Positions 2,604 to 24,533 of a DNA stretch of 25,907 bases are shown one piece after another. The DNA lies in the IMG/VR virus record IMGVR_UViG_3300006920_000209, positions 1 through 25,907 of that record; one strand, given 5' to 3'. The notes beneath the pieces were generated by a model, which did not search any database, was not told where the DNA came from, and was given only the letters and a program-made list of their open reading frames with translations. Within the stretch, counting starts at the first letter, position 1. Every line of letters starts with the position of its first letter. The translations under genes and the position numbers were made by a program. The DNA is from a virus.

Positions 2604-2609
2604 GGGTTA

Positions 2610-9401: not shown

Positions 9402-9821
9402 TTACGCTTTGCACTCCAGTTCTATCAGATTCATTCTTTTCTCAAATCCCGACTTGAGAAAAGAATCCAATTTTTTATAAATTTCCGTCCATAAAAAAGA
9501 TACCAAATCTTGTTTAATTTCAATTTCGCAGTTGATGTCCTTCATGGTTGGCAGGCTACTTATCTTGACCTGTAAAGTCGAGTAACCTAAACTCCGAAAA
9601 CGTGTATCCGTTTTCCTCACTTCCTGAATTAAAGAATACTCCAAATCCTCTTTTTTATTTTCCAATTGTGATATTTCAAATTTAGCCTTAAAGATCTCAA
9701 ATAACCATTTTCTATAAATATTTGACATTTTAGATAATTTAGTAAGAAGAGTAATTCTATCCATTGAACAATCTTCTTTAAATTCATTTTCAATAAATGA
9801 ATAATCAACCTTTCCTTCCAT
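9402..9821 (-). CDS. second UvsY-like protein, tandem paralogue
   Basis: A 139-residue protein from ATG 9821. It aligns by eye over its whole length with the next gene: FKEDCSMDRITLLTKLSKMS against LKKDFEVDQITLMEKLEDIS, RKWLFEIF against LKWLTLHF, and the end MNLIELECKA against VKLIDLESRS. It is visibly AT-richer than its neighbours. The start is set by the promoter: a TATAAT box (9828-9833) sits 6 nt upstream of ATG 9821, so the earlier in-frame ATG at 9839 would not be transcribed from it. It is the first gene of the minus-strand block. It may form mixed oligomers with the other UvsY or have a separate ssDNA role; both are inference. Confidence 0.68.
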   Translation of the reverse strand: MEGKVDYSFIENEFKEDCSMDRITLLTKLSKMSNIYRKWLFEIFKAKFEISQLENKKEDLEYSLIQEVRKTDTRFRSLGYSTLQVKISSLPTMKDINCEIEIKQDLVSFLWTEIYKKLDSFLKSGFEKRMNLIELECKA

Positions 9822-9827
9822 AGAACA

Positions 9828-9855
9828 ATTATAGCACAAAATAAAAAATTAACAA
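9828..9855 (-). promoter_or_regulatory. sigma70-like leaderless promoter of the minus-strand block
   Basis: On the minus strand TTGTTA (9850-9855), a 16-nt AT-rich spacer and a perfect TATAAT (9828-9833) are followed by 6 nt and ATG 9821. Transcription should start at or within a base or two of the ATG, giving a leaderless mRNA. It is placed correctly to drive the block from uvsY down to the polymerase. Confidence 0.7.
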
Positions 9856-9979
9856 GCTTTTTTTTAAAAATAAAAAAATAAAAAAAAAGACTTGAAAAAT
9901 TCTCTCGCGCATGGATAATTAAAATTAGATAAGGATAAGGATTGAGTTAACTTAAATAATAAATAAGATAACTTAAAAT

Positions 9980-10012
9980 ATTAAATAGTTCACTACTAAT
10001 AAGCTATTTAAT
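9980..10012. repeat. AT-rich inverted repeat
   Basis: ATTAAATAG (9980-9988) and CTATTTAAT (10004-10012) form a perfect 9-bp inverted repeat around 15 nt. It lies inside the divergent region and could be an operator or cruciform. Confidence 0.45.
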
Positions 10013-10016
10013 AACT

Positions 10017-10029
10017 GCCCCTGCGGGGC
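10017..10029. repeat. GC-rich hairpin in AT-rich region
   Basis: GCCCC, TGC, GGGGC forms a perfect 5-bp stem with a 3-nt loop, the only GC-rich element in the AT block. No T run follows on either strand, so it does not look like an intrinsic terminator; it may be a structural mark or protein site. Confidence 0.4.
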
Positions 10030-10322
10030 TACATGAATTACTAATTGATTAAGTTGCTTAAGTAATTTGAAAGAAATCTTTAAGTTTACTTAAGCTAACT
10101 TAAGTTAGGCCGCGCGAGGCAATTTTTGAGAAAATTAACAAAATGATTTGACAAGTAAGGTGGATGATTACCACGAGGATGTTGCTCCAAATATTGCGAT
10201 TAAAGGGCTCTGTGGGTGTTCTGGTGATGTTTCCGGTTAAAATGGACAATCCATGCGCGATCATACCAAAAACCCCTCAGAACGCATCCTAGAGAAAAGC
10301 GGGGGTAGTAGTGAATAAGGTA

Positions 10323-10350
10323 TTGAATACTCAATTTACCAGTGTAATCT
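10323..10350 (+). promoter_or_regulatory. sigma70-like leaderless promoter of the plus-strand block
   Basis: TTGAAT (10323-10328), 16 nt and TAATCT (10345-10350) are followed by 7 nt and ATG 10358. The -10 keeps the key T-A-----T positions. An AAGG lies 4 nt before the ATG, so a weak SD cannot be excluded. Confidence 0.5.
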
Positions 10351-10357
10351 AAGGTTC

Positions 10358-11923
10358 ATGACTCGAACGAAGACCAAGAAACCTCTAGTGGTGATCACTA
10401 CATTTGATCGGGAGAAGTCCTTTTGGGAATGCTTTAATTCCATTGACCGCAAAAAGGTGGACATCTTCATTGTTCAGGACAGTAAGTCCGAGCATCATTA
10501 CACCGATGATTTTTACAAACTAAACGAGAGATACCCCAGTGTGTCAATGAATATCAAGTTACGTAATGTCGGCGTAGGCACATGTAAAGCGGACGGAATT
10601 GAATATGCCAAGGAGAATGGATATGAGCATTTATTTCTGGTGGAGGATGATGTTATCGTCACTGATAACTCGATTTGGAAACACTTCATGGACTTCTCGA
10701 AGCACTCGGGAGTGAAGCACACCAATTGGAATGGGGTTGCCACAAATCCAGTCAAATTTACATTTAACGTAAACGACAAAATCAAAGGTGAGGTGAGAAA
10801 TGAGGTCCATGGGAGCTTTCAGTATTTTGAGACATCGGTATTTGACGAGGTTCGCATGGATACGGATTACATCAACGCATATGAGCATGTGGACCTCGAA
10901 TACCAACTTTACCAAAAGGGGCTAATTCCACCTTTCTGGTTTTTCGTTTCACCGGAGAATTGTGGGGATTACCTGAAATGCGAACCTCCGAATGGCTCTG
11001 TTATTATCCAACATCCAAAGCACAAGGAGAATTTGGATCTGTCGATTAAAGTGTGGATTGACAAGTGGGGATTTAAACCTGTCCAAGTACCCGCCACCAG
11101 TCGTTCTGAGTTTGACCTAAAGAGGATACTGCTACAGTCCAAGTATGGTATTGTTCAGAAGAAACGTAAACCCGATAAGCCAAATCCAGTATCCATCATT
11201 TGCACTATCAAAGATAGGTCACATTTTCGCTATACAGACAATAGTCAATTGCTGCCATCGGAGTTACAAATGTGCAATAATCACGACAAGGTCATTGCAT
11301 CAGTATGGGGGGTGAATAAAGACAGGGGTGGTGTTCTACCCAATCAGATCCATCTGTCCAGTTCGGAGGGATTTCGACCTTTTGAGCAATTTTTAAAAAG
11401 TGTTAATGAACAAGCACATACCTTTAAAGGTGACGTGGAATTGGTTGTAGTTGATTGGTCCAGCACGGATGTCCCCGTCGAAGACACCCTGTCAGCATAC
11501 TGGGATCATGATGTAAAAATAGTCACCCTGAATCATGATGAGGTTTTCAGTAGGGGGTTTGGTTTGGATAGCGGCATCAAAGCCTCCAAATATGACTCCT
11601 TACACCTCACAGATGTCGATATGGTTTACCACACACCAAAGTTCCTAGAAGACGCATCAAGACTTAGTGATGAAGCCTTATTTCCAACAATTTACAAAGA
11701 GCAAACACCAAGTGGATTAACTTTGTATTTGGAGATTGCGGGATTTGGTATTGCATCCTTCTCCAAGGAGGATTACCTCAAGACAAGAGGATTCATTGAT
11801 AAGAGATCTTGGGGTGCGGAAGATACCGAGTTAGCACTGGAGTTTGAAAAATTACTAGGTCCTAGCAAGATCCGAAGGGATGTGTATAGCGGCGTCATCC
11901 ACAAATGGCATAGTTCAAAATAA
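10358..11923 (+). CDS. two-domain glycosyltransferase (two GT-A modules)
   Basis: A 521-residue protein with two transferase modules. Module 1 (about 1-250) has VVITTFDRE, DIFIVQDSKS, then FLVEDDVIVTD (EDD 96-98) and AYEHVDLEYQ; it is a paralogue of the GT gene at 16762. Module 2 (about 276-521) begins PVSIICTIKDRS, has VVVDWSSTD, a DVDM metal motif near residue 419 and RSWGAEDTELALEF near 485. That W-G-x-E-D-x-(E/D)-L block is typical of the C-terminal part of GT7/GT27-type beta-glycosyltransferases. Two active sites suggest that one protein adds two sugars in sequence. Substrate unknown. It is the first gene of the plus-strand block, facing the recombination operon across the divergent region. 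Confidence 0.85.
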   Translation: MTRTKTKKPLVVITTFDREKSFWECFNSIDRKKVDIFIVQDSKSEHHYTDDFYKLNERYPSVSMNIKLRNVGVGTCKADGIEYAKENGYEHLFLVEDDVIVTDNSIWKHFMDFSKHSGVKHTNWNGVATNPVKFTFNVNDKIKGEVRNEVHGSFQYFETSVFDEVRMDTDYINAYEHVDLEYQLYQKGLIPPFWFFVSPENCGDYLKCEPPNGSVIIQHPKHKENLDLSIKVWIDKWGFKPVQVPATSRSEFDLKRILLQSKYGIVQKKRKPDKPNPVSIICTIKDRSHFRYTDNSQLLPSELQMCNNHDKVIASVWGVNKDRGGVLPNQIHLSSSEGFRPFEQFLKSVNEQAHTFKGDVELVVVDWSSTDVPVEDTLSAYWDHDVKIVTLNHDEVFSRGFGLDSGIKASKYDSLHLTDVDMVYHTPKFLEDASRLSDEALFPTIYKEQTPSGLTLYLEIAGFGIASFSKEDYLKTRGFIDKRSWGAEDTELALEFEKLLGPSKIRRDVYSGVIHKWHSSK

Positions 11924-11950
11924 CTACTCTATTTTGTTGAATTATTAAAA

Positions 11951-12352
11951 ATGCAGTTTACTCTGATTAGAGACATGACCGACGATCACGCACACACACT
12001 CAACCCGTTCGACTGGACGCATCACCAATGCTCCCAAAAACTTTGGGGCGGAGATGTTATAGAACCAATCTTGGATAAAAAGGAATCCATTCTTGAGGAA
12101 GCCGAGGAACTCACCAACGGTGAGCGACAGAAGACATACGGTAATCCCAAAGACAACTTCGGGAATATTGCAACCGCTTGGAAGTGGTGGTTGAATGCGA
12201 AATATGGCTGTGACGTTACCATTGAACCCGAAGATGTCGCCATGATGATGACCCTACTGAAGGTTGCCCGAGAAGCTAATTTACAAAAACGTGATAATAT
12301 TGTTGACGGAGCGGGTTACTTTAACACATACTCAATGTGTCTAGAAGACTAA
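11951..12352 (+). CDS. DUF6378 phage protein
   Basis: A 133-residue protein. The region from about residue 46, ILEEAEELTNGERQKTYG, NPKDNFGNIATAW, then IEPEDVAMMMTLLKVAREA and KRDNIVDGAGY, matches the DUF6378 pattern common in phages. Its biochemical role is not established; the helical E-E-A and D-N-x-x-D signatures recall all-alpha NTP pyrophosphatase-like folds, which is only a suggestion. The N-terminal 40 residues are extra and variable. ATG 11951 is used; ATG 11975 (MTDDHAH) is also possible. There is no SD. It lies 27 nt after the glycosyltransferase. Confidence 0.75.
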   Translation: MQFTLIRDMTDDHAHTLNPFDWTHHQCSQKLWGGDVIEPILDKKESILEEAEELTNGERQKTYGNPKDNFGNIATAWKWWLNAKYGCDVTIEPEDVAMMMTLLKVAREANLQKRDNIVDGAGYFNTYSMCLED

Positions 12353-12377
12353 AACATTATGATTAAAGTAATTTCAA

Positions 12378-14225
12378 ATGAGACAAATTAATTTCGGAAA
12401 GACCACCACCAGCTACTTCCTCTCAACTGGCGAGAAGGTAGAATACGATTTACCCAAAGGTGTGACTTTCATTCAGGGGGTGAACGAATCCACGGGGCAA
12501 GAGGGGCAAAAAAATGGAGTGGGTAAGACCAACATTTTCTATGAACCATATTTCTTTGCGCTATACGGCGAACTCTCAAGGAACAATGTGCCGAAGGCAG
12601 ATATCCCCTTCGATAAGGGTGGGAAGAAAAAGTGTATTGTGTGTCAGGAGCTTGATGTTGTTGAGGGTGACACAGTCCAAAAGGTGAAGATCACTCGAAT
12701 CATTAACCCATCTAAACTCATTCTGGAAATTGACGGTGTCGATATGTCCCAGTCAAATGCACGATCAACACAGGAATACATTGTTTCGAAAATCTTGAAA
12801 GGCATCAAGAAGGAAGTTTTCATGCAGAGTGTTGCGTTGAAGGCTGATAGTAATTCCTTTTTTGAGATGGGTAAACCCGAACGTGAAAAGTTCATCGGAA
12901 CCATATTTGATTTAACATACATTAAGGAGACCGGAAAGCTGGCAGGTTCGGAATACTTGAAAACATCAAAATCTTGTGGGGAGAAAAATGTCCTTATTTC
13001 CAGTAAGACTACCCATATGGATTCTCTCAAGAATCAGATCCGTTTAATTAAAAGTGAATTAGATGAGCAGAAGGATAAACTGAGGGGTAATATGGCTCTT
13101 CGTCAAGAAGCAATCGACCAATTCGAATTGGGTGAAGAGCCGGTGAAGATTAATGTTGATGATCAGAAAGAGAAAATTCAGAGTGTGCTAACTCTCATTA
13201 AAACAAAGCTATCCGAGAATACTGATGAGCGAGATTCGTTTAAATTAGAGAAGTCTAGCTTGGAGCGAAACATCTCCACCAACCGTAACAAAATACGGGC
13301 GTTTGAGGACGGTAAGGCATGCCTTACTTGCGACAGACCATTTGAGGCTAAGGACGTTGCCAAATCACAAGAGTCCATTAAAGAGCTTGAGATCGAAATC
13401 AAAGACAACACTGCTGTTGTGGGGGATTTGGAATCGAAGCTAAAGAGCTTGCAGGTTATCGCGGATAAAATATTGGAAAAACAAGGCGCTGTTGATGATA
13501 AACGTTATGGTCTTCTTGGGGATATATCGAAAAATGGAGAGTCGATTCAACAATATCGGCTTCAGAAAGAACGGCTTGATAGGTTGATCGAGGAGAAAGA
13601 TGCTCTGAAAAAAGAGATTGATGAACCTCTTGATAGCTCCGCTCTAAATAACTCCCTATCGGAATACAAGGGTCTCCGAGATACCCTTGCGGAAGAAACC
13701 AAGATCTATGATGATTTAGTAATTGAGATGGAAGTCTTAGAATGCGTTAAGGTCATATTCGGCGATAAAGGTTTGCGGAGTGCTATCTTAGCGAGACTCA
13801 TCGACCTGTTCAATTCCAGTCTGAACAATTACCTTGCACAATTCAATCTGCCTTACACCATCACTTTTAACGATAACCTAGAGTATGTTGTCACCGGACA
13901 TAATGGAGTTGAGAAAAACTTCAATCTACTTTCAGGTGGCGAAAAATGGAGAGCGAACACCGCTTTGTTTTTCACCTTCTCGGACATCTTGAGAATCCAA
14001 AACCAAATTGGATTTAACATCAAGCTCTTTGATGAGTATTTCGATTATGCAGTCTGTCCACAAGGACTTGAGAATGTTTCAGAGGTGCTGATTGATCGAC
14101 TGGAGAAGTATGGTGAGAATGTTTTAATCATTACCCATAGAAAAGAATTTGATATTCCGAATTCTCAGGTTATAACAGTGGTGAAGGAACGGGGTATGAG
14201 TAGAATTTTAGAAGATGAACATTAA
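12378..14225 (+). CDS. 46: recombination endonuclease ATPase subunit, SbcC/Rad50-type (T4 gp46-like)
   Basis: A 615-residue SMC-like ATPase, partner of gp47. Seen: Walker A GQKNGVGKT (43-51), FFALYGE, a first coiled-coil arm (about 190-310), the zinc hook CLTC (C315, C318), a second coiled-coil arm (about 330-460), the ABC signature LSGGEKWR (518-525) and Walker B IKLFDEYFD near residue 550, then a D-loop-like helix and the ITHR switch motif near the end. All elements of a working head and hook are present. T4 gp46 is 560 residues, so this one has slightly longer arms. Its last codons overlap the next small gene. It is on the strand opposite gp47, about 6 kb away. Confidence 0.95.
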   Translation: MRQINFGKTTTSYFLSTGEKVEYDLPKGVTFIQGVNESTGQEGQKNGVGKTNIFYEPYFFALYGELSRNNVPKADIPFDKGGKKKCIVCQELDVVEGDTVQKVKITRIINPSKLILEIDGVDMSQSNARSTQEYIVSKILKGIKKEVFMQSVALKADSNSFFEMGKPEREKFIGTIFDLTYIKETGKLAGSEYLKTSKSCGEKNVLISSKTTHMDSLKNQIRLIKSELDEQKDKLRGNMALRQEAIDQFELGEEPVKINVDDQKEKIQSVLTLIKTKLSENTDERDSFKLEKSSLERNISTNRNKIRAFEDGKACLTCDRPFEAKDVAKSQESIKELEIEIKDNTAVVGDLESKLKSLQVIADKILEKQGAVDDKRYGLLGDISKNGESIQQYRLQKERLDRLIEEKDALKKEIDEPLDSSALNNSLSEYKGLRDTLAEETKIYDDLVIEMEVLECVKVIFGDKGLRSAILARLIDLFNSSLNNYLAQFNLPYTITFNDNLEYVVTGHNGVEKNFNLLSGGEKWRANTALFFTFSDILRIQNQIGFNIKLFDEYFDYAVCPQGLENVSEVLIDRLEKYGENVLIITHRKEFDIPNSQVITVVKERGMSRILEDEH

Positions 14226-14370
14226 AACACTAGACGAAGAAAAACACAATACTCGATTCCTATGGAAGGTCAACATCAACAACACGACTTGCAGAGTATA
14301 TCGGGTGGGTGGTCTGGAGCATGATTTTGGAATCAATAATCATCAAGACCCAGAGCTATGGGTAGTTTGA
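14215..14370 (+). CDS. small hypothetical protein, 51 residues
   Basis: An ATG inside the last codons of gp46 (11-nt overlap, different frame) opens a 51-codon frame ending in TGA. The product begins MNIKTLDEEKHNTRFLW and ends NNHQDPELWVV; it is polar with several aromatic residues and reads like a real small protein (RVYRVGGLEHDFG). Stop-start overlap with gp46 supports translational coupling. Not recognised. Confidence 0.55.
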   Translation: MNIKTLDEEKHNTRFLWKVNINNTTCRVYRVGGLEHDFGINNHQDPELWVV

Positions 14371-14374
14371 CCGG

Positions 14375-14503
14375 ATGGAGACATGGCCGGATGACGAAAA
14401 AGAGTCTATTATGGAAGATTATAGAGAATACGAAGATTGCGGTCGGATTAGAGTCGGATCTCTATTCGAGAGGGAGCACAGTGACATTAAATGGTTTAGA
14501 TAA
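14375..14503 (+). CDS. very small acidic hypothetical protein, 42 residues
   Basis: ATG 14375 starts 4 nt after the previous stop. The product METWPDDEKESIMEDYREYE continues to IKWFR; it is strongly acidic with Tyr/Trp. The longer frame from 14358 covers the same bases but gives an implausible basic N-terminus and would overlap two genes. The tight end-to-end packing favours this reading. Not recognised; acidic phage micro-proteins of this kind sometimes target host enzymes, but nothing here shows that. Confidence 0.5.
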   Translation: METWPDDEKESIMEDYREYEDCGRIRVGSLFEREHSDIKWFR

Positions 14504-14507
14504 AATA

Positions 14508-14729
14508 ATGAATATGATGAAAATTAGCATAGAGTGTAAGAACGCATTGGGAGACAAAATCGATACATGGTTATTTAAACCGGACGTGAAAAAGGAACTA
14601 CAGACATTAGGGATTTATGATCAGGTTAACGCAGAGCAAATTAGTGGTGTGGTGGCGGGTTTTATTTCGGGTCTGATCATGCAGCAGAAACTTGAAGAGC
14701 AATTTGTTATTGAAAATACCAAAATCTAA
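14508..14729 (+). CDS. small hypothetical protein, 73 residues
   Basis: The frame is open from 14358, but the start is placed at ATG 14508, 4 nt after the previous small gene. The product (MNMMKISIECKNALGDK) has a central LKxxL-like helix and a short hydrophobic helix, ISGVVAGFISGLIMQQKL (about 44-61), that could be amphipathic or membrane-associated. The -35 element of the next gene's promoter lies in its last codons. Not recognised. Confidence 0.55.
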   Translation: MNMMKISIECKNALGDKIDTWLFKPDVKKELQTLGIYDQVNAEQISGVVAGFISGLIMQQKLEEQFVIENTKI

Positions 14730-14737
14730 TGTAATAT
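14710..14737 (+). promoter_or_regulatory. sigma70-like leaderless promoter of the methyltransferase gene
   Basis: TTGAAA (14710-14715), 16 nt and TAATAT (14732-14737, preceded by TG) are followed by 6 nt and ATG 14744. The -35 lies in the preceding coding sequence. The predicted start of transcription coincides with the ATG. Confidence 0.55.
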
Positions 14738-14743
14738 AGAAAT

Positions 14744-15310
14744 ATGAGTGAGAAAACTTGGTCCCAATTGGAGGACGAGAAATATAGCTGGCTGTATGCA
14801 GGGGGTTACCCCAAAGGGAATCCCGAAGGTTTAGTTAGCCATTATAAGATCCCTAAACAGTCCAGCACAATTGATTTGGGTTGCGGTCTAGGGTCACTGT
14901 CCAACCACTTTGGAGACTACACTGGAGTTGATGTGTCGGAGTTCGTGGTCAATAAATGCAAAAAAAGTAATCCAAATGGAACCTACCACCACGAGAGTCT
15001 ACATCGTTTAGAAAATTTTTATGATAAAACTTATGACGTTGGCATTTCGGCAGACGTGTTTGAACACATCCCGCCTGATGAGGTCGATTCGGTCCTAAGG
15101 TCAATTTCCAAACTAGATTGCTCCGAATTTTACTTTGGCATTTCTATTAGACCATCCGGCATCTTAGATAAAGACGGGGGTAACCTCCACCTGACACTAT
15201 GGGACCAAGCGACATGGGTCAAAAAACTCCAAGAATATTTCGAGGTAGTAACCCACCACCGGTCAACCAAAATGCGTGGCTTGATTTACGTGAACGCTAG
15301 AAAAAAGTGA
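14744..15310 (+). CDS. class I SAM-dependent methyltransferase
   Basis: A 188-residue protein with a Rossmann-type methyltransferase core: motif I STIDLGCGLG (41-50), the acidic end of strand 2 TGVDVS (D63), and ISADVFEHIPPDEV (about 101-114), the motif-IV/post-motif region typical of small-molecule or sugar methyltransferases of the Methyltransf_11/23 type. The C-terminal part has LHLTLWDQATWVKKLQEYFEVV, common in capsule or LPS methyltransferases. It overlaps the sialyltransferase-like gene by 4 nt (GTGA), which links the two products in one pathway. Probable job: methylating a sugar in the glycan made by the neighbouring transferases (inference). Confidence 0.85.
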   Translation: MSEKTWSQLEDEKYSWLYAGGYPKGNPEGLVSHYKIPKQSSTIDLGCGLGSLSNHFGDYTGVDVSEFVVNKCKKSNPNGTYHHESLHRLENFYDKTYDVGISADVFEHIPPDEVDSVLRSISKLDCSEFYFGISIRPSGILDKDGGNLHLTLWDQATWVKKLQEYFEVVTHHRSTKMRGLIYVNARKK

Positions 15311-15852
15311 AGGACATTCTGCAAGACAAGACATTCTGTATCGTGGGCAACGGACCCTGTGAAAAGGGAACGGGGAATGGTCCAAAGATTGATGAGTTTG
15401 ACATCGTGTTCCGTTTTAATAATTTCGTGCTCGGTGGGCATGAGTTGGATTATGGTGAAAAAACAACTCATTGGGTAATGAATTTTTATAGAGACATTAC
15501 GGCGTTTGGGAGAAATAAAGAATTCGACATGATATGCCCCCTACCCCTGAATACTAATAAATATTTGGGTGTTTATAAGGGGACACATAAAGCAAACTTA
15601 TCCAAGTATTCTGATAAAACCAAATTCATCGACGTGGGTGTATTTGAAGACCTACGTATCAAGATACCAACCCCCAGCACAGGAATGTGTTTGATATGGT
15701 GGATTTATAAATCAGGATTAGCAATAACAAAAGACCAGATATTTGGGTTCTCTAACTTTTCCGAAAGACATTATCATTACTTTGACACCATGAAGGACAC
15801 GGTTCATAACGGGGCGTCGGAAAAGGCACTCATAGATAAAATTACGAAATGA
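15307..15852 (+). CDS. GT29 sialyltransferase-like glycosyltransferase
   Basis: A 181-residue protein. KTFCIVGNGP (8-17) with GPKIDEFDIVFRFN (25-38) and DYGEKTTHW (48-56) reproduces the sialylmotif-L-like start of GT29; PSTGM (123-127) corresponds to motif S; HYHYFD (155-160) and H167 near the C-terminus suit the motif III/VS region. It is shorter than animal enzymes, which carry membrane anchors and stems; bacterial and phage members are compact like this. GT29-like proteins outside animals need not use CMP-sialic acid, so the donor is unproven. The start codon is GTG in a GTGA overlap with the preceding methyltransferase; the stop overlaps the next methyltransferase by 4 nt (ATGA). Confidence 0.82.
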   Translation: MKDILQDKTFCIVGNGPCEKGTGNGPKIDEFDIVFRFNNFVLGGHELDYGEKTTHWVMNFYRDITAFGRNKEFDMICPLPLNTNKYLGVYKGTHKANLSKYSDKTKFIDVGVFEDLRIKIPTPSTGMCLIWWIYKSGLAITKDQIFGFSNFSERHYHYFDTMKDTVHNGASEKALIDKITK

Positions 15853-16448
15853 AAAAATATAATATCAAATACGGTTACGAACACCGAAAAGATTATTCCT
15901 ATTTCAACGATATGCCGTTTACAGATGGTTGGCAGAATGAGGTGTATCAAGAAGCAATAGAATTGGCAGAGAAAACCGAGGGAATTAATTTTGTTGCCGA
16001 TGTGGGTTGTGGATCGGCTTTCAAATTATTGAAATATTTTAACAGTGACGCATATGACATCAGTGGTTATGACGTGGAAGAGACGGTTCGTGCGTTAAAG
16101 GCCAAGCATCCCGAATATCCATGGCATATTTCCGACTTTGATGAGGAACCCTACGAGGAAGCTGACATGGTCATTTGCTCGGATGTCATAGAACATGTTC
16201 TTGATCCCGATGACCTCTGCAACTTTCTTAAGAAATTCAAAGCCAAAAAATATGTAATTTCAACCCCCGATAGGGATTTGGTATATGGTGGGCATGACCA
16301 CAATGGACCACCCAACAACCCCACCCATATTCGCGAATGGAACTTCTCCGAATTCAGGGATTACATTTCGAGTCATTTTCAAATAGAGCGACACTGGATA
16401 TCCAATAGACGACAAGCAACACAAGCAATAATTTGCAACACCAAATAA
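15849..16448 (+). CDS. class I SAM-dependent methyltransferase
   Basis: A 199-residue protein. Motif I FVADVGCGSAFK (48-59), strand-2 acidic residue in SGYDVEE, and MVICSDVIEHVLDPDDL (near 110-126) are clear. The C-terminal VYGGHDHNGPPNNPTHIREW and ISSHFQIERHWISN resemble methyltransferases found with glycosyltransferases in capsule, LPS and phage glycan clusters. It overlaps the GT29-like gene by 4 nt and is followed after 1 nt by the MazG-like gene. It is not a close copy of the methyltransferase at 14744, so the two probably act at different positions or substrates (inference). Confidence 0.85.
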   Translation: MKKYNIKYGYEHRKDYSYFNDMPFTDGWQNEVYQEAIELAEKTEGINFVADVGCGSAFKLLKYFNSDAYDISGYDVEETVRALKAKHPEYPWHISDFDEEPYEEADMVICSDVIEHVLDPDDLCNFLKKFKAKKYVISTPDRDLVYGGHDHNGPPNNPTHIREWNFSEFRDYISSHFQIERHWISNRRQATQAIICNTK

Positions 16449-16449
16449 C

Positions 16450-16758
16450 ATGAACAGATTACAATACCTACTAATGAAAGTTGCGGAAGAGTGCGCAGAG
16501 ATTACGAAAGTTGCTTCCAAGACTTCCCAATTTGGATGGGATTCCACCAACCCGTTTATAAAAGACGATAAAACTAATCGTGAAAAATTACAAATGGAGG
16601 TTAATGACCTGTTGGCGATATTGGATCTCCTGAATGAAAGCGGCGAGTTCTACCTTTATCAAGACCCCGAATACATCAAAGAACGTAAAGACAAATGTCG
16701 GAAGTATTATAACAAGTCCGTGGACTCGGGGTATGTATCGTTGGGGGAGGAACTTTAA
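16450..16758 (+). CDS. MazG-like NTP pyrophosphohydrolase-type protein
   Basis: A 102-residue all-alpha protein. LLMKVAEECAEITKVASKT (7-25) carries the EExxE metal-binding motif of MazG/all-alpha NTP-PPases, and REKLQMEVNDLLAILDLLNE (about 44-63) supplies the second E-x-x-D motif. Phages carry such proteins to hydrolyse non-canonical nucleotides or adjust alarmone or dNTP pools. It lies 1 nt after a methyltransferase and 3 nt before a glycosyltransferase. It could act on nucleotide precursors, perhaps nucleotide-sugar related, but the neighbourhood does not prove it. Confidence 0.75.
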   Translation: MNRLQYLLMKVAEECAEITKVASKTSQFGWDSTNPFIKDDKTNREKLQMEVNDLLAILDLLNESGEFYLYQDPEYIKERKDKCRKYYNKSVDSGYVSLGEEL

Positions 16759-16761
16759 AAT

Positions 16762-17574
16762 ATGAACATTGGAACTAAAACAGCACTGGGCATTGTGACC
16801 TATGACCGAGGGGATTTTTACGACAAAATCATCGACACTCTACCCAAAGATAGCGTAGATAAAATTTACGTGTATGATTCGTCTCCGAGTGATAAGAAAT
16901 ATGCAAAAACGAATGACCGAGTCAAGGTCATTTCTGGAGATGAACCCGCAACCGTGGGGGTAGCCAAGAATCGACTCTGGGCGGCTATGATTGAAGATGG
17001 GGCGTCACATCTATATCTCCAAGAAGATGACGTGAGGATCACTAACGGCTCCGTATTCGAGGCATATCTAGAAACCGCTAAACAGTCTGGTCTTTGGGGT
17101 TCCTTGAGCTATGCATGGCATGGTTCGGCTAACAAAAATCAGAAACTGGAGAGAATTGTTAAAAACTCAATCGACTATGAACACGGTGTGGGTGTTGATT
17201 TCACCAAAAACTGTGCAGGTGCGTTCACATACCACCATGCCAATATCATTGATAAGATCGGATATATCGACGAATTCTACAAAAACGCATGGGAGCATCT
17301 TGACCATTACCAACAGGTTGCGGAGAAGAAGCTGGCATCACATTGGTGGTGGTTCACGGACGCTAAAGATTCATTCAAATATTTTGAGGAGTTGGACAAT
17401 GACCAACTAGACCGTTCGGTTATCCGCAGTGATGTATCTTGGAAAGGTGATATGATTGAAGGTGCCAAACATTTCCGAAAAAGATTTGGAAATGCACCGT
17501 CCGATATGCCGTATGTCTCTGAAGAGGTGGCAATGGAGCGGATGCAATATCTACAGGAGAAATACTCCGTTTAA
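16762..17574 (+). CDS. glycosyltransferase, GT-A fold, paralogue of module 1 at 10358
   Basis: A 270-residue protein. LGIVTYDRGDF, KIYVYDSSPS, then LYLQEDDVRITNGSV (EDD 88-90) and NAWEHLDHYQQ align with FLVEDDVIVTDNSI and NAYEHVDLEYQ of the first module of the large glycosyltransferase. The metal-binding acidic motif is intact. It has a short C-terminal helical tail rich in Met/Glu. It closes the plus-strand glycan cluster; its last 4 nt overlap the 3' end of the opposing membrane protein gene. Acceptor and donor unknown. Confidence 0.85.
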   Translation: MNIGTKTALGIVTYDRGDFYDKIIDTLPKDSVDKIYVYDSSPSDKKYAKTNDRVKVISGDEPATVGVAKNRLWAAMIEDGASHLYLQEDDVRITNGSVFEAYLETAKQSGLWGSLSYAWHGSANKNQKLERIVKNSIDYEHGVGVDFTKNCAGAFTYHHANIIDKIGYIDEFYKNAWEHLDHYQQVAEKKLASHWWWFTDAKDSFKYFEELDNDQLDRSVIRSDVSWKGDMIEGAKHFRKRFGNAPSDMPYVSEEVAMERMQYLQEKYSV

Positions 17575-17861
17575 TCTATAGGGAACCAAAAAAGGGAACC
17601 AAGTAGCCCTAGGAAACTAATGGCGAATGGTAGGGTGAACCAGACCAAACCGGAGAACCAGACTCCGGTCATTAACACACCTACCCAAAAACCTAAGCAG
17701 GTCGGACATTTCGTTAGATATTGTCCGACCTCTTCTTTTCCAAATCTGGAAAATACACCCACAATCTTACCCCTAAACCCTTTGGCGAGGGGGCTGTAAA
17801 TCAGGATATTGATCAATCCCAAAGAGGCCAAAAACAATACCAGTAATTCAATACCAATCAT
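17571..17861 (-). CDS. small membrane protein with CPxCLGFW motif (DUF1360-like)
   Basis: A 96-residue protein: an N-terminal membrane segment (IELLVLFLASLGLINILIY, 4-22), a short basic loop, CPTCLGFWVG (about 52-61), then two hydrophobic helices covering most of the C-terminus. The C-P-x-C-L-x-x-W turn before a membrane helix recalls DUF1360-type small membrane proteins; the assignment is tentative. It is a lone minus-strand gene between plus-strand blocks; it converges with the glycosyltransferase (4-nt overlap) and diverges from the tail tube gene (18 nt). It may act at the host membrane. Confidence 0.6.
   Translation of the reverse strand: MIGIELLVLFLASLGLINILIYSPLAKGFRGKIVGVFSRFGKEEVGQYLTKCPTCLGFWVGVLMTGVWFSGLVWFTLPFAISFLGLLGSLFWFPID
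17700..17740 (+). terminator. possible plus-strand terminator downstream of the glycan block
   Basis: A perfect 9-bp stem, GGTCGGACA (17700-17708) with TGTCCGACC (17722-17730), is followed on the plus strand by a pyrimidine-rich TCTTCTTTTCC. Another perfect 7-bp stem lies just before it (17649-17655 with 17663-17669). They start about 75 nt after the glycosyltransferase stop and lie inside the opposing gene, so they may also be coincidental. Confidence 0.3.
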
Positions 17862-17865
17862 GTTA

Positions 17866-17873
17866 AATAATTA
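17866..17873 (+). promoter_or_regulatory. late-type promoter box candidate, tail tube gene
   Basis: AATAATTA matches TATAAATA at 6 of 8 positions and ends 6 nt before ATG 17880. Alone it is weak in AT-rich DNA, but the spacing matches the better late boxes at 23288 and 24486. Confidence 0.3.
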
Positions 17874-17879
17874 GTTAAT

Positions 17880-18515
17880 ATGAGCGACATCATCCACAAA
17901 ACAACTTGCCCCGACGAGCTACCCAAAAAGGAAGTGGTGGTTAGCGAATTTGGGACCGCCAGCAGAACTAGCGACCTAAACGGAATTCTGGACGATAAGT
18001 TTGATGCCATACTCCAATTACCGAAATGCCTCCGTCAATACAATCGCCTAAAGAAGGATGTAAAAAAGGAGGTCAGCTTGGACAGTCTGGAGATGTCAGT
18101 GAGATCATTCCCCATACCGGAGCTAACCATATCCTCTAAGAAATTAGGTATGAGTGTGGGGTCCACTACCATTACGGGTAGCAAATATGAGGAGCAATCC
18201 GACATTACGATCCAGTTCAGAGTAGATGATCGGATGAAGAACTACTACACCCTTTATCGATGGATGAACATGGTCGTCGATGTGGAAGCTGGGGACATGA
18301 CAAAATATAGCGAAAAGGAGCTAGTCACCTCATTCAGCGTTTTCTCATTAGACCAATATAGAAACCCCATCGGCGCACATACATTTCATGGCGTATCTCC
18401 AGTATCTATAAGCGGATGGACGTATGATCAAAATACCAACGGTGAAGAGATCTACGTTGATTTCACATTCGCCTACAATAAATTCACATTTGACTTGAAA
18501 GAGGACTTTGTGTAG
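17880..18515 (+). CDS. tail tube-like protein (T4 gp19 superfamily)
   Basis: A 211-residue virion protein candidate. An N-terminal extension of about 70 residues (MSDIIHKTTCPDELPK...) precedes a beta-rich domain: SVRSFPIPELTISSKKLGMS, then DITIQFRVDDRMKNYYTLYRWM (about 119-140), VFSLDQYRNPIGAHTFHG and a final VDFTFAYNKFTFDL. The strand pattern, the F-x-V-D-x-x-x-x-x-Y-x-x-x-x-x-W core and the terminal T-F-A-Y-(N/D) strand are typical of myovirus tail tube/gp19-type folds. T4 gp54 has a related fold, so a tube-initiator role is an alternative. The start at 17880 faces the divergent membrane protein gene across 18 nt. A late-type box lies upstream. Confidence 0.68.
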   Translation: MSDIIHKTTCPDELPKKEVVVSEFGTASRTSDLNGILDDKFDAILQLPKCLRQYNRLKKDVKKEVSLDSLEMSVRSFPIPELTISSKKLGMSVGSTTITGSKYEEQSDITIQFRVDDRMKNYYTLYRWMNMVVDVEAGDMTKYSEKELVTSFSVFSLDQYRNPIGAHTFHGVSPVSISGWTYDQNTNGEEIYVDFTFAYNKFTFDLKEDFV

Positions 18516-18523
18516 GGTATATT
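18495..18523 (+). promoter_or_regulatory. sigma70-like leaderless promoter
   Basis: TTGAAA (18495-18500), 17 nt and TATATT (18518-18523, 5 of 6 positions) are followed by 7 nt and ATG 18531. The -35 lies inside the 3' end of the tail tube-like gene. Confidence 0.6.
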
Positions 18524-18530
18524 ACCTCAT

Positions 18531-18653
18531 ATGGGTGAGGAATTAAAAAGGCGCACGGTGGCAGTTATGGACAAAAGAATTAAGTTAGCGGAGGAAAAAC
18601 TCAAAATATTAGAATATGTGGAATCTGTCAAAGAGTCCATCAATGCGTCATGA
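18531..18653 (+). CDS. very small coiled-coil hypothetical protein, 40 residues
   Basis: ATG 18531 to TGA 18653. The product is one charged helix (VMDKRIKLAEEKLKILEYVE) with heptad-like Leu/Ile spacing. Its stop overlaps the next start by 4 nt (ATGA), and a good promoter places transcription start at its ATG. Both points support a real gene despite its size. Not recognised. Confidence 0.6.
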   Translation: MGEELKRRTVAVMDKRIKLAEEKLKILEYVESVKESINAS

Positions 18654-18877
18654 ATAACGAAGACCCGTTCGATATCGAAATGTTTGATAAGTTGGACACC
18701 CTTACGAAGGCACGTAAAAAACTACGAGAAGACTTGCAGAGGTCTATTGATAACAATAGTCACTCAGGGGTAATGGACAAAATAATCGCAGAAATTTCCA
18801 AACTGAACAAAAAAGAAAGTAAACTGATTCACCGGATGCTTGTTTTATTGAGTTCTAGCAAAGAAGACTCTAAATAA
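18650..18877 (+). CDS. small coiled-coil hypothetical protein, 75 residues
   Basis: Overlaps the previous small gene by 4 nt. The protein is almost entirely helical: FDIEMFDKLDTLTKARKKL, then IIAEISKLNKKESKLIHRML. Charged heptads suggest dimerisation, possibly with the preceding 40-residue peptide. Not recognised; it could be an assembly helper given the tail tube gene upstream and the prohead-like peptide downstream, which is inference. Confidence 0.6.
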   Translation: MNNEDPFDIEMFDKLDTLTKARKKLREDLQRSIDNNSHSGVMDKIIAEISKLNKKESKLIHRMLVLLSSSKEDSK

Positions 18878-18881
18878 AGCC

Positions 18882-19037
18882 ATGAGACCAGAAATTAAAG
18901 AAGCCGTCAAAGAGTTCATCAATGCAGCACAAACTGATGATATTGCCAAGTCGGACGAATTGGCTAAAGCCATCATCACCAAAAAATTACAAGATCGCTT
19001 TGATATTGCAAAACAAGGGGTTGAGGAAAGCGACTAA
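18882..19037 (+). CDS. small protein, possible prohead-core-like peptide, 51 residues
   Basis: ATG 18882 follows the previous stop by 4 nt. The product (MRPEIKEAVKEFINAAQT, then KSDELAKAIITKKLQDRFDI and KQGVEESD) resembles the helical E-F-(V/I)-N-A, short loop, A-I-x-x-K-(L/V)-x-D-x-(L/F)-D-x-(K/A)-K pattern that I recall from head proteins of T4-like phages, where such helices occur in capsid assembly or prohead core peptides. The match is a pattern by eye, so the role is tentative. Its last 4 bases overlap the 3' end of the opposing acidic gene. Confidence 0.55.
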   Translation: MRPEIKEAVKEFINAAQTDDIAKSDELAKAIITKKLQDRFDIAKQGVEESD

Positions 19038-19663
19038 ATTAGTATCGCTTCGATCTTCTCAATAACTTCGGAAAAGTTATCAGCATTCGCTTCAGCCGGT
19101 AGATTGCCAATCCCGTATTTGATCAGGGACGGGTTGACGTTTGCAGCCTTAATGATTAGATTGAGCATATCAACCGCCATAGCATCATTAAGCTCAATTG
19201 GCTCATCCTCTATAGGCTCGGGTAATTCCTCACCTTCTGGAGGCAACCCACCTTCATCTCCCTCTGGTGGGGGTAATTCATCTCCTTCTGGATCAGGAAC
19301 ATCTACCTCTTCATCACCCTCCGCTTCCTGCATAATCTTTTCTGGGCGTTCGGATAAAACATTCTTAATAACGGAAAGCTTCTTATATGGACCCAATTCG
19401 ATGAATTTGGGCATATTCATATACGCTTCAAATTCATCACTAGGTTTGAATTTAAGAGCACTTAACAAAATGTTGGTCAAATATACCAATTTGGGTGTGT
19501 CATCCCCCACTTCTTCATCCTCAGAATCACCACCTTCAGGGTCACCTAGTGCGGATTCTTGTTTTTCGGGGTCCAGAAGGTCCATGCTCTCCTCCTCATT
19601 AAGAATCAAAGGTTTACCGAAATATTCTTGGTGAAATCGTTTAATCGTGTCTTTGAAGCTCAT
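19034..19663 (-). CDS. acidic low-complexity protein with Pro-Glu-Gly-Asp repeats
   Basis: A 209-residue, strongly acidic protein. The N-terminus (FKDTIKRFHQEYFGKPLIL) is helical and basic; an acidic stretch (35-55) follows; then a folded-looking middle (LVYLTNILLSALKFKPSDEF, about 59-78), a tandem PEGDE/PPEGE repeat tract (about 118-152) and a C-terminal helical domain (DAMAVDMLNLIIKAANVN). No family is recognised. Acidic scaffold or portal-associated proteins of phages look broadly like this, but that is only a resemblance. It is a lone minus-strand gene converging on the prohead-like peptide gene and diverging from the zinc-finger-like gene. Confidence 0.65.
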   Translation of the reverse strand: MSFKDTIKRFHQEYFGKPLILNEEESMDLLDPEKQESALGDPEGGDSEDEEVGDDTPKLVYLTNILLSALKFKPSDEFEAYMNMPKFIELGPYKKLSVIKNVLSERPEKIMQEAEGDEEVDVPDPEGDELPPPEGDEGGLPPEGEELPEPIEDEPIELNDAMAVDMLNLIIKAANVNPSLIKYGIGNLPAEANADNFSEVIEKIEAILI

Positions 19664-19677
19664 CTGAAATTAATTAG

Positions 19678-19704
19678 TTGAAAATTAATTAATTGTGTTA
19701 TCAT
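19678..19704 (+). promoter_or_regulatory. sigma70-like leaderless promoter
   Basis: TTGAAA (19678-19683), 15 nt and TATCAT (19699-19704) with an extended TGn just before it (19696-19698) are followed by 5 nt and ATG 19710. It lies in a 46-nt divergent gap that also contains an AATTAATT inverted repeat (about 19669-19692), a possible operator. Confidence 0.6.
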
Positions 19705-19709
19705 GAGGC

Positions 19710-19964
19710 ATGACTAGCGAAGTTATCATTACGTGCGACGAATGTGGTGTCAGAATGAACAAAGACGGACCCACACCTCAATATTATGGGTTATCGTTGA
19801 AATGCAGGGATTATCACACAGGACTGCATGGTGAGTTAAGTGGATTGTCGTATGTTAATTCGGTTTATATAACACCACCTCTACACACAGATATGGACTT
19901 TTGTGGGTTTTCGTGTTTATCGAAATGGGTATTGCGTGAAAAAGTTGACGAAAAAGTTGAATAG
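19710..19964 (+). CDS. small zinc-finger-like hypothetical protein
   Basis: An 84-residue protein with ITCDECGVRM (Cys 9 and 12), a middle part YGLSLKCRDYHTGLHGE, and a second pair in DFCGFSCLSKWVLREK. The paired C-x-x-C and C-x-x-x-C with a following S-x-W helix suggest a zinc-binding module like those in small phage proteins of unknown role. The C-terminus is charged. It has its own promoter with transcription starting at the ATG. Confidence 0.6.
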   Translation: MTSEVIITCDECGVRMNKDGPTPQYYGLSLKCRDYHTGLHGELSGLSYVNSVYITPPLHTDMDFCGFSCLSKWVLREKVDEKVE

Positions 19965-19979
19965 TAAAAATATCCCCAT

Positions 19980-19985
19980 TAAATA
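19980..19985 (+). promoter_or_regulatory. late-type promoter box candidate, co-chaperonin gene
   Basis: ATTAAATA (19978-19985) matches TATAAATA at 6 of 8 positions, with the last six bases identical (19980-19985). It ends 6 nt before ATG 19992. Confidence 0.35.
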
Positions 19986-19991
19986 CGATCA

Positions 19992-20459
19992 ATGAGTGAT
20001 GATTTAAGAGTTGTGTCAGGAACGGATCGAGTTGAGGGGGATTTGACATTCCAGTCCGACGATATCAAAGAGAACGATTACCTTATCCATGGTGCCGAGA
20101 ATATTACCGAAAAGGATTTCGATTACGGTTTGGATATCGATGGGTATAAAATCACGAAAGTTCTGGACGATGTCATCCTCTTGGAGGAGGTTAAGAAGGA
20201 TGAATCCGAGAAGGATGCGGGTGGTTACGTCATTAAGAACGGTCTGGCGTTTACCGAAGACCAACTAGGTGAGGTTGAAGGTGGCGGGGTTTACAAGGCG
20301 TATAAAATCAAAATGGCGGGTATGAATGTCAAGGAACTTGGAGTTGGCGACATAATTGTTGTCAATCAAAAGACGGCACTTAAGATTGATTTTTGCGGTT
20401 CCGATTACCTAATCTCACATGAGGGTAATGTTTATTGTGTTCTCGAAAAGAGTAAATAA
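19992..20459 (+). CDS. GroES/gp31-like co-chaperonin
   Basis: A 155-residue protein. Residues 56-153 follow the GroES fold order: VLDDVILLEEVKKDE (first strands), GGYVIKN (lead-in to the mobile loop), VYKAYKIKMAGMNVKELGVGDIIVVNQ (the V-x-x-G-D-I-V-V core strand) and DYLISHEGNVYCVLEK (final strands, as in the GroES ending). The segment between about 80 and 98 is the likely mobile loop that contacts the host GroEL. In T4, gp31 replaces GroES so that the capsid protein folds. The N-terminal 55 residues are an extra acidic extension. Sequence similarity is modest; fold order and the GVGDIIVVN block carry the call. Confidence 0.72.
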   Translation: MSDDLRVVSGTDRVEGDLTFQSDDIKENDYLIHGAENITEKDFDYGLDIDGYKITKVLDDVILLEEVKKDESEKDAGGYVIKNGLAFTEDQLGEVEGGGVYKAYKIKMAGMNVKELGVGDIIVVNQKTALKIDFCGSDYLISHEGNVYCVLEKSK

Positions 20460-20462
20460 TTT

Positions 20463-20489
20463 TTGAACTTCTGAGAAATCGAGTATAAT
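20463..20489 (+). promoter_or_regulatory. sigma70-like leaderless promoter
   Basis: TTGAAC (20463-20468), 15 nt and a perfect TATAAT (20484-20489) are followed by 6 nt and ATG 20496. It begins 4 nt after the co-chaperonin stop, so it fills the whole intergenic gap. Confidence 0.72.
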
Positions 20490-20495
20490 ACAGTT

Positions 20496-21242
20496 ATGGC
20501 AATTTTAAGCACCAGCGGAACTTCCAAGAGTGGAAAGTCAACATTCATCAAGCACTTCCAGAAGAAGTATAAGAAATATGGAACACCATCCGAAACCTAT
20601 CGGGACATTCCCAATCTAAAACTCTACGGTCAGGGGACTCAAGAATCTCAAGCTAGGATTAGGGATTTCATGTATGACCAAGCCAAAGAGACTTGGGCTA
20701 AACGGGATACTCAAAAGAATGTCATCCATGATCGGTGCCTATTGGATAACTTAGCCGCCACCATGATCCTCATGGGTAACGGTGATGGAACTATTTCGGA
20801 TTCATTTTTCACCGAGAGCATGGAGAAGACTAAAGCCTCAATGGAGTTCTACCACTGTGTGTATTATTTCCCCATCGAATCCCCAGACAACATTCCGCTA
20901 CCAGAATCTCTGGATAAAGAATATCGCCTCAAGATGAACATTATCCTAGAGAGTTTCGTTTTGGCCAAAGAGAAGGATGATGCAGATCGGAGAGACACAC
21001 TGTTTCCCGAGAAAAATTGCACATACATTGAACGGGTAACCGGAGCTTCTGTGGAAGAGCGGCTTTCCTTCGTTTCGGAAATTCTTGATGAGAACGGTGC
21101 GTTTATTTCGGAAGAAGAGTCCCAAGGCAACATGAACAGTTCCATTCTAGATGCGAGCGGTAACGTAGCCGATAACGGCAAAGCGGACATCACTCTGGAT
21201 GACTTTGGTTTCGAGAGAGAAAAAATAAATCTTGACGTTTAG
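20496..21242 (+). CDS. P-loop kinase/ATPase (AAA_28-like)
   Basis: A 248-residue protein. It starts with a strand and P-loop, STSGTSKSGKSTF (GxxxxGKS at 8-15), then VIHDRCLLDNLA (about 76-87), which resembles the D-R-x-x-x-D-N/L-A motif of nucleotide/nicotinamide-riboside kinase-like AAA_28 proteins, and FYHCVYYFPIE as a later core strand. The last 45 residues (EEESQGNMNSSILDASGNV) are acidic and probably disordered, an unusual tail for a kinase. Possible substrates are nucleosides, dNMPs or nicotinamide riboside; the sequence does not decide. Confidence 0.75.
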   Translation: MAILSTSGTSKSGKSTFIKHFQKKYKKYGTPSETYRDIPNLKLYGQGTQESQARIRDFMYDQAKETWAKRDTQKNVIHDRCLLDNLAATMILMGNGDGTISDSFFTESMEKTKASMEFYHCVYYFPIESPDNIPLPESLDKEYRLKMNIILESFVLAKEKDDADRRDTLFPEKNCTYIERVTGASVEERLSFVSEILDENGAFISEEESQGNMNSSILDASGNVADNGKADITLDDFGFEREKINLDV

Positions 21243-21259
21243 CGATATCCGTGTAGATT
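21232..21259 (+). promoter_or_regulatory. sigma70-like leaderless promoter
   Basis: TTGACG (21232-21237), 16 nt and TAGATT (21254-21259) are followed by 6 nt and ATG 21266. The -35 lies in the last codons of the kinase gene. Confidence 0.55.
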
Positions 21260-21265
21260 GTAATC

Positions 21266-21850
21266 ATGACGATTACTGAACAACTGAACACCCTACCGAA
21301 CACCGAAGATTGTCTCTTTGTTGAGCTTAAAGGCTACCGAAACGGCAAGGGTGATGTAGGCAACTACACTATCAATGCCACACTTAATTACGAGGATGCC
21401 TTGCGCCATGACATCGATTTTGTTGAGAGTTGGGAACCGAACAAACGAGATGAGCTTATACTTCAGGCTAAAATTAATGAGACCACTAAAGTAGCCGAAG
21501 AGTCGCTCTCCGATCTCCTAAAAACCGCAAAGGAAGCCGTCTTGGTTTCTCTTAAGAAAGATTCCGCCCAATCTCAGGCCCAATCTCTGGCACAAAAGGA
21601 GGCATACCGGAAAGTGGGACCGGCTACCCGTGAGCATATTGAATCCGGCTCCGTAATGATTCGCGGTTTACTTCACGACAAGCGGCTTATCTCAGAATCC
21701 GATAAGAAGGTCGTTAATAGCGCACCAAAAACGTTGGCTAAAAAAGTCATAACCGAATACTTGAAGACCAGCCGATTTAATCAGTTTAAGATTGACCAGT
21801 TTGATAAACTTTCCTTTAGTGAAAAGACACAAACTCTAATCTTGGAATAA
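21266..21850 (+). CDS. hypothetical protein, 194 residues
   Basis: Not recognised. The N-terminal part is mixed alpha/beta (CLFVELKGYRNGKGDVGNYT, about 16-35), followed by a long helix (about 70-125) with a Gln/Ala/Ser-rich run (SAQSQAQSLAQKEAYRKVG) and a C-terminal helical part ending SEKTQTLILE. The A/Q-rich helix hints at a coiled coil. It has its own promoter. Confidence 0.6.
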   Translation: MTITEQLNTLPNTEDCLFVELKGYRNGKGDVGNYTINATLNYEDALRHDIDFVESWEPNKRDELILQAKINETTKVAEESLSDLLKTAKEAVLVSLKKDSAQSQAQSLAQKEAYRKVGPATREHIESGSVMIRGLLHDKRLISESDKKVVNSAPKTLAKKVITEYLKTSRFNQFKIDQFDKLSFSEKTQTLILE

Positions 21851-21858
21851 AAATAATA

Positions 21859-22119
21859 ATGACAAAAACCAACTACACTAGCGTCGAGGAAATTGAAACA
21901 ATGTTTGACGAGTTTTGGGTTCCTTTCGATAAGAAAGAACTGGGGACATCTGATACCGGAATCATCATCAACGCTATCGTTGATGAAAAATCGGGTAAAC
22001 TTTACATTGAGAGATTTGAACCGATAACAGAAAATATCACCGTGTATTCTTTTGAAGGCGGAAACCACCCTACAACTTGGTTGCTAGATGAGGGTGGATC
22101 TATTGAAGCAACTCTTTAA
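21859..22119 (+). CDS. hypothetical protein, 86 residues
   Basis: Not recognised. A small acidic alpha/beta protein: VEEIETMFDEFWVPF, a beta segment GIIINAIVDEKSGKLYIERF, then ITVYSFEGGNHPTTWLLDEGG. It follows the previous gene by 8 nt without an SD; AATAAAAA upstream matches a late box at only 6 of 8 positions. Confidence 0.55.
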   Translation: MTKTNYTSVEEIETMFDEFWVPFDKKELGTSDTGIIINAIVDEKSGKLYIERFEPITENITVYSFEGGNHPTTWLLDEGGSIEATL

Positions 22120-22126
22120 ATAAATA
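22119..22126 (+). promoter_or_regulatory. late-type promoter box, DUF5662 gene
   Basis: AATAAATA matches the T4 late consensus TATAAATA at 7 of 8 positions and ends 5 nt before ATG 22132. The box overlaps the last base of the preceding stop. Confidence 0.45.
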
Positions 22127-22131
22127 AAATT

Positions 22132-23292: not shown

Positions 23293-23295
23293 ATA
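23288..23295 (+). promoter_or_regulatory. late-type promoter box, papain-like protease gene
   Basis: GATAAATA matches TATAAATA at 7 of 8 positions and ends 5 nt before ATG 23301; it overlaps the preceding stop codon. Confidence 0.5.
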
Positions 23296-23300
23296 ACCAT

Positions 23301-24480: not shown

Positions 24481-24485
24481 ATTTT

Positions 24486-24493
24486 TATTTATA
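24486..24493 (-). promoter_or_regulatory. perfect T4-type late promoter box
   Basis: TATAAATA on the minus strand, identical to the T4 late consensus, ends 5 nt before ATG 24480. In T4 the start site lies about 6 nt downstream of this box, which here means the start codon itself. It is recognised in T4 by gp55, and a gp55-like gene is present at 6694-7473. Confidence 0.65.
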
Positions 24494-24525: not shown

Positions 24526-24533
24526 GACTACAG

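Follow-up and report, generated by a model that had tools for sequence, protein, structure and literature searches.

Promoters placed at start codons and probable leaderless initiation in an uncultured clade of T4-like phages

The subject of this analysis is a stretch of viral DNA of 25,907 bases (hereafter the window), which is the entire IMG/VR record IMGVR_UViG_3300006920_000209 and, because that record is linear, represents a genome fragment. The window belongs to the T4-like superfamily, as it carries the T4-type core genes gp43 (DNA polymerase), gp46/47, gp55, UvsW, and gp19 by PHROG matches. In the window and in a clade of uncultured relatives, promoters of two classes, one of the sigma70 type and one of the T4 late type, stand at a fixed short distance from start codons. 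The clade lacks Shine-Dalgarno (SD) sequences, the two promoter classes fall before functionally early and late genes, respectively, and the arrangement is restricted to this one clade. Judging from promoter position, we think it very probable that the transcription units of these phages begin largely without a leader in both the early and the late programme, and do so without SD sequences.

Each component has precedents, in leaderless genes, in T4 late promoters, and in SD-poor phages; in the open-access papers searched, we found no account of a T4-like clade in which promoters of both classes are fixed at the start codon. If true, this clade would be the first known case of a lytic-type virus lineage specialised for leaderless translation, leaderless mRNAs having mostly been regarded as a quirk of the host or as rare cases among phages. 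Two independent promoter systems locked to the start codon, with T4-like relatives outside the clade keeping SD sequences, would provide a natural experiment on the evolution of leaderless initiation. They would also supply a rule for correctly annotating start sites and promoters in a common aquatic phage group, as well as a molecular hint about the ribosome of the clade's host.

Two promoter classes at the start codons of the window

A preliminary description of the window had listed seven genes on both strands, from 9821(-) to 21266, each preceded by a TTG-type -35 element, 15-17 nt, a TAnnnT -10 element, and 5-7 nt before the ATG. All seven are present with exactly the sequence and spacing described. 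Two further cases had been called weaker; 2603(-) fits the rule exactly, and 24534 fits it with an 8-nt gap. The sigma70-type (early) promoters are as follows.

2604 to 2637, minus strand: early promoter TTGCTT-16-TAGTCT-6 before ATG 2603(-); predicted leaderless
9822 to 9855, minus strand: early promoter TTGTTA-16-TATAAT-6 before ATG 9821(-); predicted leaderless
10323 to 10357, plus strand: early promoter TTGAAT-16-TAATCT-7 before the glycosyltransferase ATG 10358; predicted leaderless
14710 to 14743, plus strand: early promoter TTGAAA-16-TAATAT-6 before the methyltransferase ATG 14744; predicted leaderless
18495 to 18530, plus strand: early promoter TTGAAA-17-TATATT-7 before ATG 18531; predicted leaderless
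19678 to 19709, plus strand: early promoter TTGAAA-15-TATCAT-5 before ATG 19710; predicted leaderless
20463 to 20495, plus strand: early promoter TTGAAC-15-TATAAT-6 before the thymidylate-kinase-like ATG 20496; predicted leaderless
21232 to 21265, plus strand: early promoter TTGACG-16-TAGATT-6 before ATG 21266; predicted leaderless
24498 to 24533, plus strand: early promoter TTGACA-16-TAGGCT-8 before ATG 24534; predicted leader 0-2 nt

With the gene starts of the window called by simple rules and curated (n = 43), the pattern TTG-N3-N15-17-TAnnnT-N5-7 lies upstream of 8 of the 43 starts as opposed to 5 of 998 other ATGs (Fisher P = 5e-9), and dinucleotide-shuffled upstream regions contain a mean of 0.21 matches (sd 0.45, maximum 3 in 3000). 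The comparison with shuffled upstream regions and internal ATGs that the preliminary description had proposed thus came out in favor of the pattern. The core TTG-15..17-TAnnnT occurs 76 times across the window, with the distance to the next start clustering at 5-8 nt, and five of the nine occurrences at 5-8 nt from a start lie at exactly 6 nt. TAnnnT by itself is weakly enriched (9/43 starts versus 59/998 other ATGs); the signal is therefore carried by the -35 element and the spacing. This test within the window is partly circular, the pattern having been defined by the earlier reader after seeing the sites, a concern that is removed by the independent test on relatives described below. For two of the starts there is support from protein families. 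The PHROG match of the gene at 10358 begins at residue 11 of the protein and residue 7 of the profile, near both N-termini, so this ATG is correctly placed, and at 20496 a PHROG match from protein residue 7 and profile residue 9, together with a P-loop near the N-terminus, indicates that the ATG is the real start.

A second signal, missed by the preliminary description, is the T4 late box TATAAATA near start codons. The late promoters of the window are listed here together with the gene for the sigma factor that would read them.

24481 to 24493, minus strand: late promoter TATAAATA-N5 before ATG 24480(-), the exact T4 late consensus; predicted leaderless
23288 to 23300, plus strand: late promoter GATAAATA-N5 before the papain-like peptidase ATG 23301; predicted leaderless
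22119 to 22131, plus strand: late promoter AATAAATA-N5 before ATG 22132 of a DUF5662 gene; predicted leaderless
18869 to 18881, plus strand: late promoter TCTAAATA-N5 before ATG 18882; predicted leaderless
6694 to 7473, minus strand: gp55-type late sigma factor gene (phrog_234 late sigma, E 3e-12), whose product would read late promoters

A late box ending exactly 5 nt before the ATG is found at 4 of the 43 window starts and at none of the 998 other ATGs (0.09 in shuffles), and in two large relatives the box lies exactly 5 nt upstream of the ATG in 28 of 194 and 17 of 134 genes. Features of T4-type late promotion are present here, namely the TATAAATA box without a -35 element, its location at late genes, and a gene for a gp55-type sigma. 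Because the T4 late box spans about -13 to -6 (PMC2988020), the N5 geometry would put +1 on the A of the AUG.

The clade of relatives and its lack of Shine-Dalgarno sequences

Relatives were gathered by similarity to the DNA polymerase only, blind to promoters, which yielded about 98 IMG/VR contigs with 29-34% identity. The query, which is also the basis of the trees, was the following gene.

3 to 2282, minus strand: T4-like DNA polymerase (gp43) gene (phrog_262, E 8e-135)

In 1009 genes of 77 new contigs, the distance from the early core to the ATG has its maxima at 6 nt (87 genes) and 7 nt (46 genes) over a background of about 5 genes per position, and clade-wide the early pattern precedes 196 of 1106 genes, compared with 23 at a control distance. 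The typical form in the clade is AGTTGATT-N16-TATAAT-N6-ATG. Unsupervised positional k-mers from 1205 clade starts recover TTGA at -35 and TATAAT at -14 to -12, as well as TAAATA/ATAAAT at -14 to -11, which is the T4 late box; beyond promoter words and their flanks, nothing else emerged from these starts, and no SD word. The expectation that enrichment would be found only at transcription-unit starts was likewise confirmed, as early elements stand before 2% of the genes that overlap their upstream neighbor versus 44% of those that follow a gap of 20-39 nt. The codon at the predicted +1 is ATG in 150 cases, GTG in 30, and TTG in 1 (n = 181), purines being the usual +1 bases.

SD-like words at the proper distance were found in 45 of the 1106 clade genes as opposed to 58 at a control distance, and the clade is therefore without an SD signal, which bears out the near absence of SD sequences noted in the preliminary description. 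In contrast, the other T4-like contigs retrieved with the same polymerase query have 479 such words versus 48 at the control distance, and they show no promoter peak. SD sequences are used by T4, Aeromonas T4-like phages, S-PM2, RM378, and phiM9, and by XG4, which like phiM9 is near the clade by terminase; none of these phages has the early promoter pattern. The further statement that T4-like phages normally use SD sequences hence holds for the T4-like outgroups tested. At the curated window starts an SD-like word occurs twice (2/43), and neither gene bears a promoter. One clade phage encodes ribosomal protein bS21 (locus L271, G011 60388-60537, minus strand; E 8e-17), an unusual gene to find in a phage without SD sequences.

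Two trees place the window as the sister of the leaderless rows, with the SD users outside; all leaderless rows and the window lie on one side of a single branch with support of 93-98.

The two promoter classes also sort with gene function. In the two large relatives, the late box precedes genes for portal, major head, head protease, sheath, adaptor, endolysin, and fibres, and the sigma70 form precedes genes for UvsX, gp55-type sigma, helicase, SSB, dUTPase, exonuclease, thymidylate kinase, and queuosine-type enzymes. In the window, as in a relative, it is the early form that precedes thymidylate kinase. The early genes in the records G022 and G012 include QueD, QueE, and GTP cyclohydrolase, which suggests a pathway for 7-deazaguanine modification of DNA or tRNA.

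A conserved GGAACT box lies a few nucleotides upstream of TATAAT, often without a TTG -35 element, before the DNA polymerase and some other clade genes (examples are L020 5294, L024 6236, L025 258, and G012 43113, 61366, and 90973). GAAC near -23 is enriched in the positional k-mers of clade starts. This box may represent a third class of promoter, of middle type and with an activator of its own.

Leaderless initiation, its alternatives, and the host

We propose that host RNA polymerase with the housekeeping sigma would read TTGa-N15-17-TATAAT, the last T of which lies 6 (5-8) nt before the ATG, and that the phage gp55-type sigma would read the late box (N)ATAAATA, the end of which lies 5 nt before the ATG. 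With +1 on the A of the AUG in both classes, the mRNA would start with its start codon, and the ribosome, as a 70S particle or via a 30S-initiator tRNA complex, would have to bind a 5'-terminal AUG or GUG. SD sequences would then be dispensable, and they have been lost; downstream operon genes, which often overlap, would probably be reached by coupling. The preliminary description had transcription starting at or beside the AUG. The recurring geometry behind that claim and its enrichment at unit starts hold up, and the exact +1 is a prediction from promoter matches. We also lean, less firmly, toward a wider scenario in which a whole, widely sampled T4-like clade gave up SD initiation and rebuilt its host-sigma early and gp55 late programmes as leaderless mRNAs, two unrelated promoter types converging on +1 = AUG because the host ribosome favors 5'-terminal start codons.

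Several points weigh against leaderless initiation as the general rule. Promoter matches predict the start point without proving it, and since the +1 used by RNA polymerase can move by 1-3 nt, leaders of that length may occur on some mRNAs. About 70% of the window genes have neither element, and the proposal does not account for their initiation; the window also shows a few possible SD sequences (4 versus 1 in the control). Gene starts were called by simple rules. Lastly, the window forms a long branch in the tree (support 93-98), and the -10 hexamers of the relatives are less degenerate than those of the window.

Among known systems, the bacterial leaderless 'TA-led' genes (Zheng et al. 2011, PMC3160421) share TANNNT about 12 bp before the start, no SD sequence, and a predicted +1 at or beside the start codon, and both a -10 element about 12 bp before the start above chance and a lack of SD sequences are found here. 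They differ in being host genes, mainly of Actinobacteria and Deinococcus-Thermus, whereas the clade described here consists of lytic-type phages that conserve a -35 TTG and put a second, sigma-specific late box to the same use. T4 itself, with early (sigma70) and late (gp55; TATAAATA) promoters (PMC2988020), has the same late box, a gp55-type sigma gene, and the same split into early replication and late virion genes. However, exact late boxes in T4 are mostly 21-28 nt upstream of the ATG with an SD sequence between, whereas the clade's box ends 5 nt before the ATG and the SD sequence is gone.

The likeliest of the alternatives, though still an improbable one, is an adaptation to an actinobacterial (or Deinococcus) host, that is, to an AT-rich actinobacterium rich in leaderless genes. 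Leaderless genes exceed 20% in those phyla (PMC3160421), and the papain-like peptidase of the window has its nearest matches in Streptomyces phage genes (46-48%); leaderless genes also occur, however, across many other phyla. WhiB, a common though not universal actinophage gene, was found in 0 of 20 clade records, many of which are fragments. A relative encodes heptose kinase/adenylyltransferase, and a relative encodes bS21, a family that a control search did not find in Corynebacterium. The actinobacterial, Deinococcus, or archaeal host suggested in the preliminary description is not supported. The gp55-type sigma, the heptose kinase/adenylyltransferase of some relatives, and the bS21 of one indicate that the RNA polymerase is bacterial and, weakly, that the host is Gram-negative.

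An improbable alternative, and the main rival to transcription starting at the AUG, takes the AT-rich element at -12 not for a promoter but for a ribosome-binding signal, A-rich and without SD like that of Bacteroidetes, with transcripts beginning farther upstream. Bacteroidetes lack SD sequences and have A-rich starts, and the uncultivated Far-T4 phages, to which the clade is possibly related, have been assigned to Bacteroidetes/Flavobacteriales (PMC7198788, PMC13037479). Like the clade, Far-T4 phages (PMC4360716) are T4-like and aquatic, and their genes for GTP cyclohydrolase, phosphoribosyl transferase, and queuosine are also present in the two large relatives; membership of the clade is a candidate assignment, the window having no gp23 for placement. 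RM378, the one Far-T4 isolate, is not close to the clade, whose portal and sheath score 68 and 64 bits with it versus 151 and 180 bits with T4, and it differs in having SD sequences and no leaderless promoters. The cultured Flavobacteriia phages phi14:2, phi38:1, and 11b also make no use of SD sequences, but their starts follow an A-rich stretch at -13 to -10 (63% A), and leaderless promoters are nearly absent from them; these three show neither the promoters described here nor the clade's start context, and the Bacteroidetes -7 box TAnnTTTG has no positional peak in the clade. The clade's element, in contrast, is paired with TTG at a fixed spacing of 15-17 nt, comes as two distinct words (TATAAT and TAAATA) that sort with gene function, and is absent from operon-internal genes, and the clade genes without a promoter have no A-tract. 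A-tracts would explain neither the -35 element nor the functional split, which argues against such a ribosome site.

It is less likely still that the promoters are real and translation begins at a downstream codon after a short leader, the starts having been mis-called. The starts are indeed predicted rather than measured, but the family matches at 10358 and 20496 begin at residues 11 and 7, where the profiles themselves start, clade starts have no preceding SD sequence, and the predicted +1 codon is ATG or GTG with almost no exception.

An archaeal host, with leaderless mRNA made by archaeal RNA polymerase, seems to us barely credible. The only relatives in the genome-contig collection are two contigs within a Thermoplasmata metagenome-assembled genome (MAG), with 24-25% identity, but both have SD-like starts and no leaderless promoter. 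In addition, the clade has bacterial -35/-10 geometry and a gp55-type sigma gene, and an archaeal TATA box would sit near -26, whereas the positional k-mers show bacterial -35/-10 spacing only. The two contigs (L174 and L175, T4-like polymerase contigs of about 7 kb) probably reached the archaeal MAG through binning contamination, as they bear SD-like starts.

Chance, by which AT-rich upstream sequence would yield TAnnnT and TTG accidentally and the hits would have been hand-picked, can draw on the frequency of TAnnnT alone (59/998 other ATGs) and on the post hoc definition of the pattern, but we reject it on the internal ATGs (8/43 starts versus 5/998 for the full pattern), the shuffles (maximum 3 in 3000), the identical positional peak in about 98 independent contigs, and the lack of the pattern in other AT-rich T4-like phages.

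The clade records contain no psbA and thus give no sign of cyanophages, and one tRNA-Asn was the only tRNA in the scanned clade loci. A tmRNA call in a relative was taken as spurious on account of its implausibly long tag.

Other features of the window

The window encodes a DNA polymerase, SbcC/SbcD (gp46/47), a UvsW-like helicase, a gp55-type late sigma, a tail tube, PhoH, and a thymidylate kinase, and several glycosyltransferase genes are also present. No close cultured isolate was found for the window or the clade, the best identities to cultured isolates being 28% (window polymerase), 33% (clade polymerase), and 38% (terminase). An Rfam search of the window gave no match, and a PhoH search with the window sequence alone found no relatives.

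The papain-like peptidase gene (23301-24014) has 46-49% identity to proteins from Streptomyces phages and from phage GX15bay, the nearest known relatives among all window genes searched, and possibly reflects transfer across very different phages. A glycosyltransferase family 29 (sialyltransferase-type) domain (15307-15852; Pfam E 8e-15) lies within a cluster of sugar and methyl transferase genes. The probable glycosyltransferase start 4626(-) has neither promoter class, and a few nucleotides upstream of it stands a 9-bp hairpin, CCTAGGGGT-GATAAG-ACCCCTAGG (4627-4660, minus strand). Finally, the divergent intergenic region at 9840-10357 is AT-rich and 500 bp long. It contains inverted repeats and recurring CTTAA(G)/AACTTAA words, GC and AT skew switch sign there, and it is a candidate replication origin or regulatory centre.

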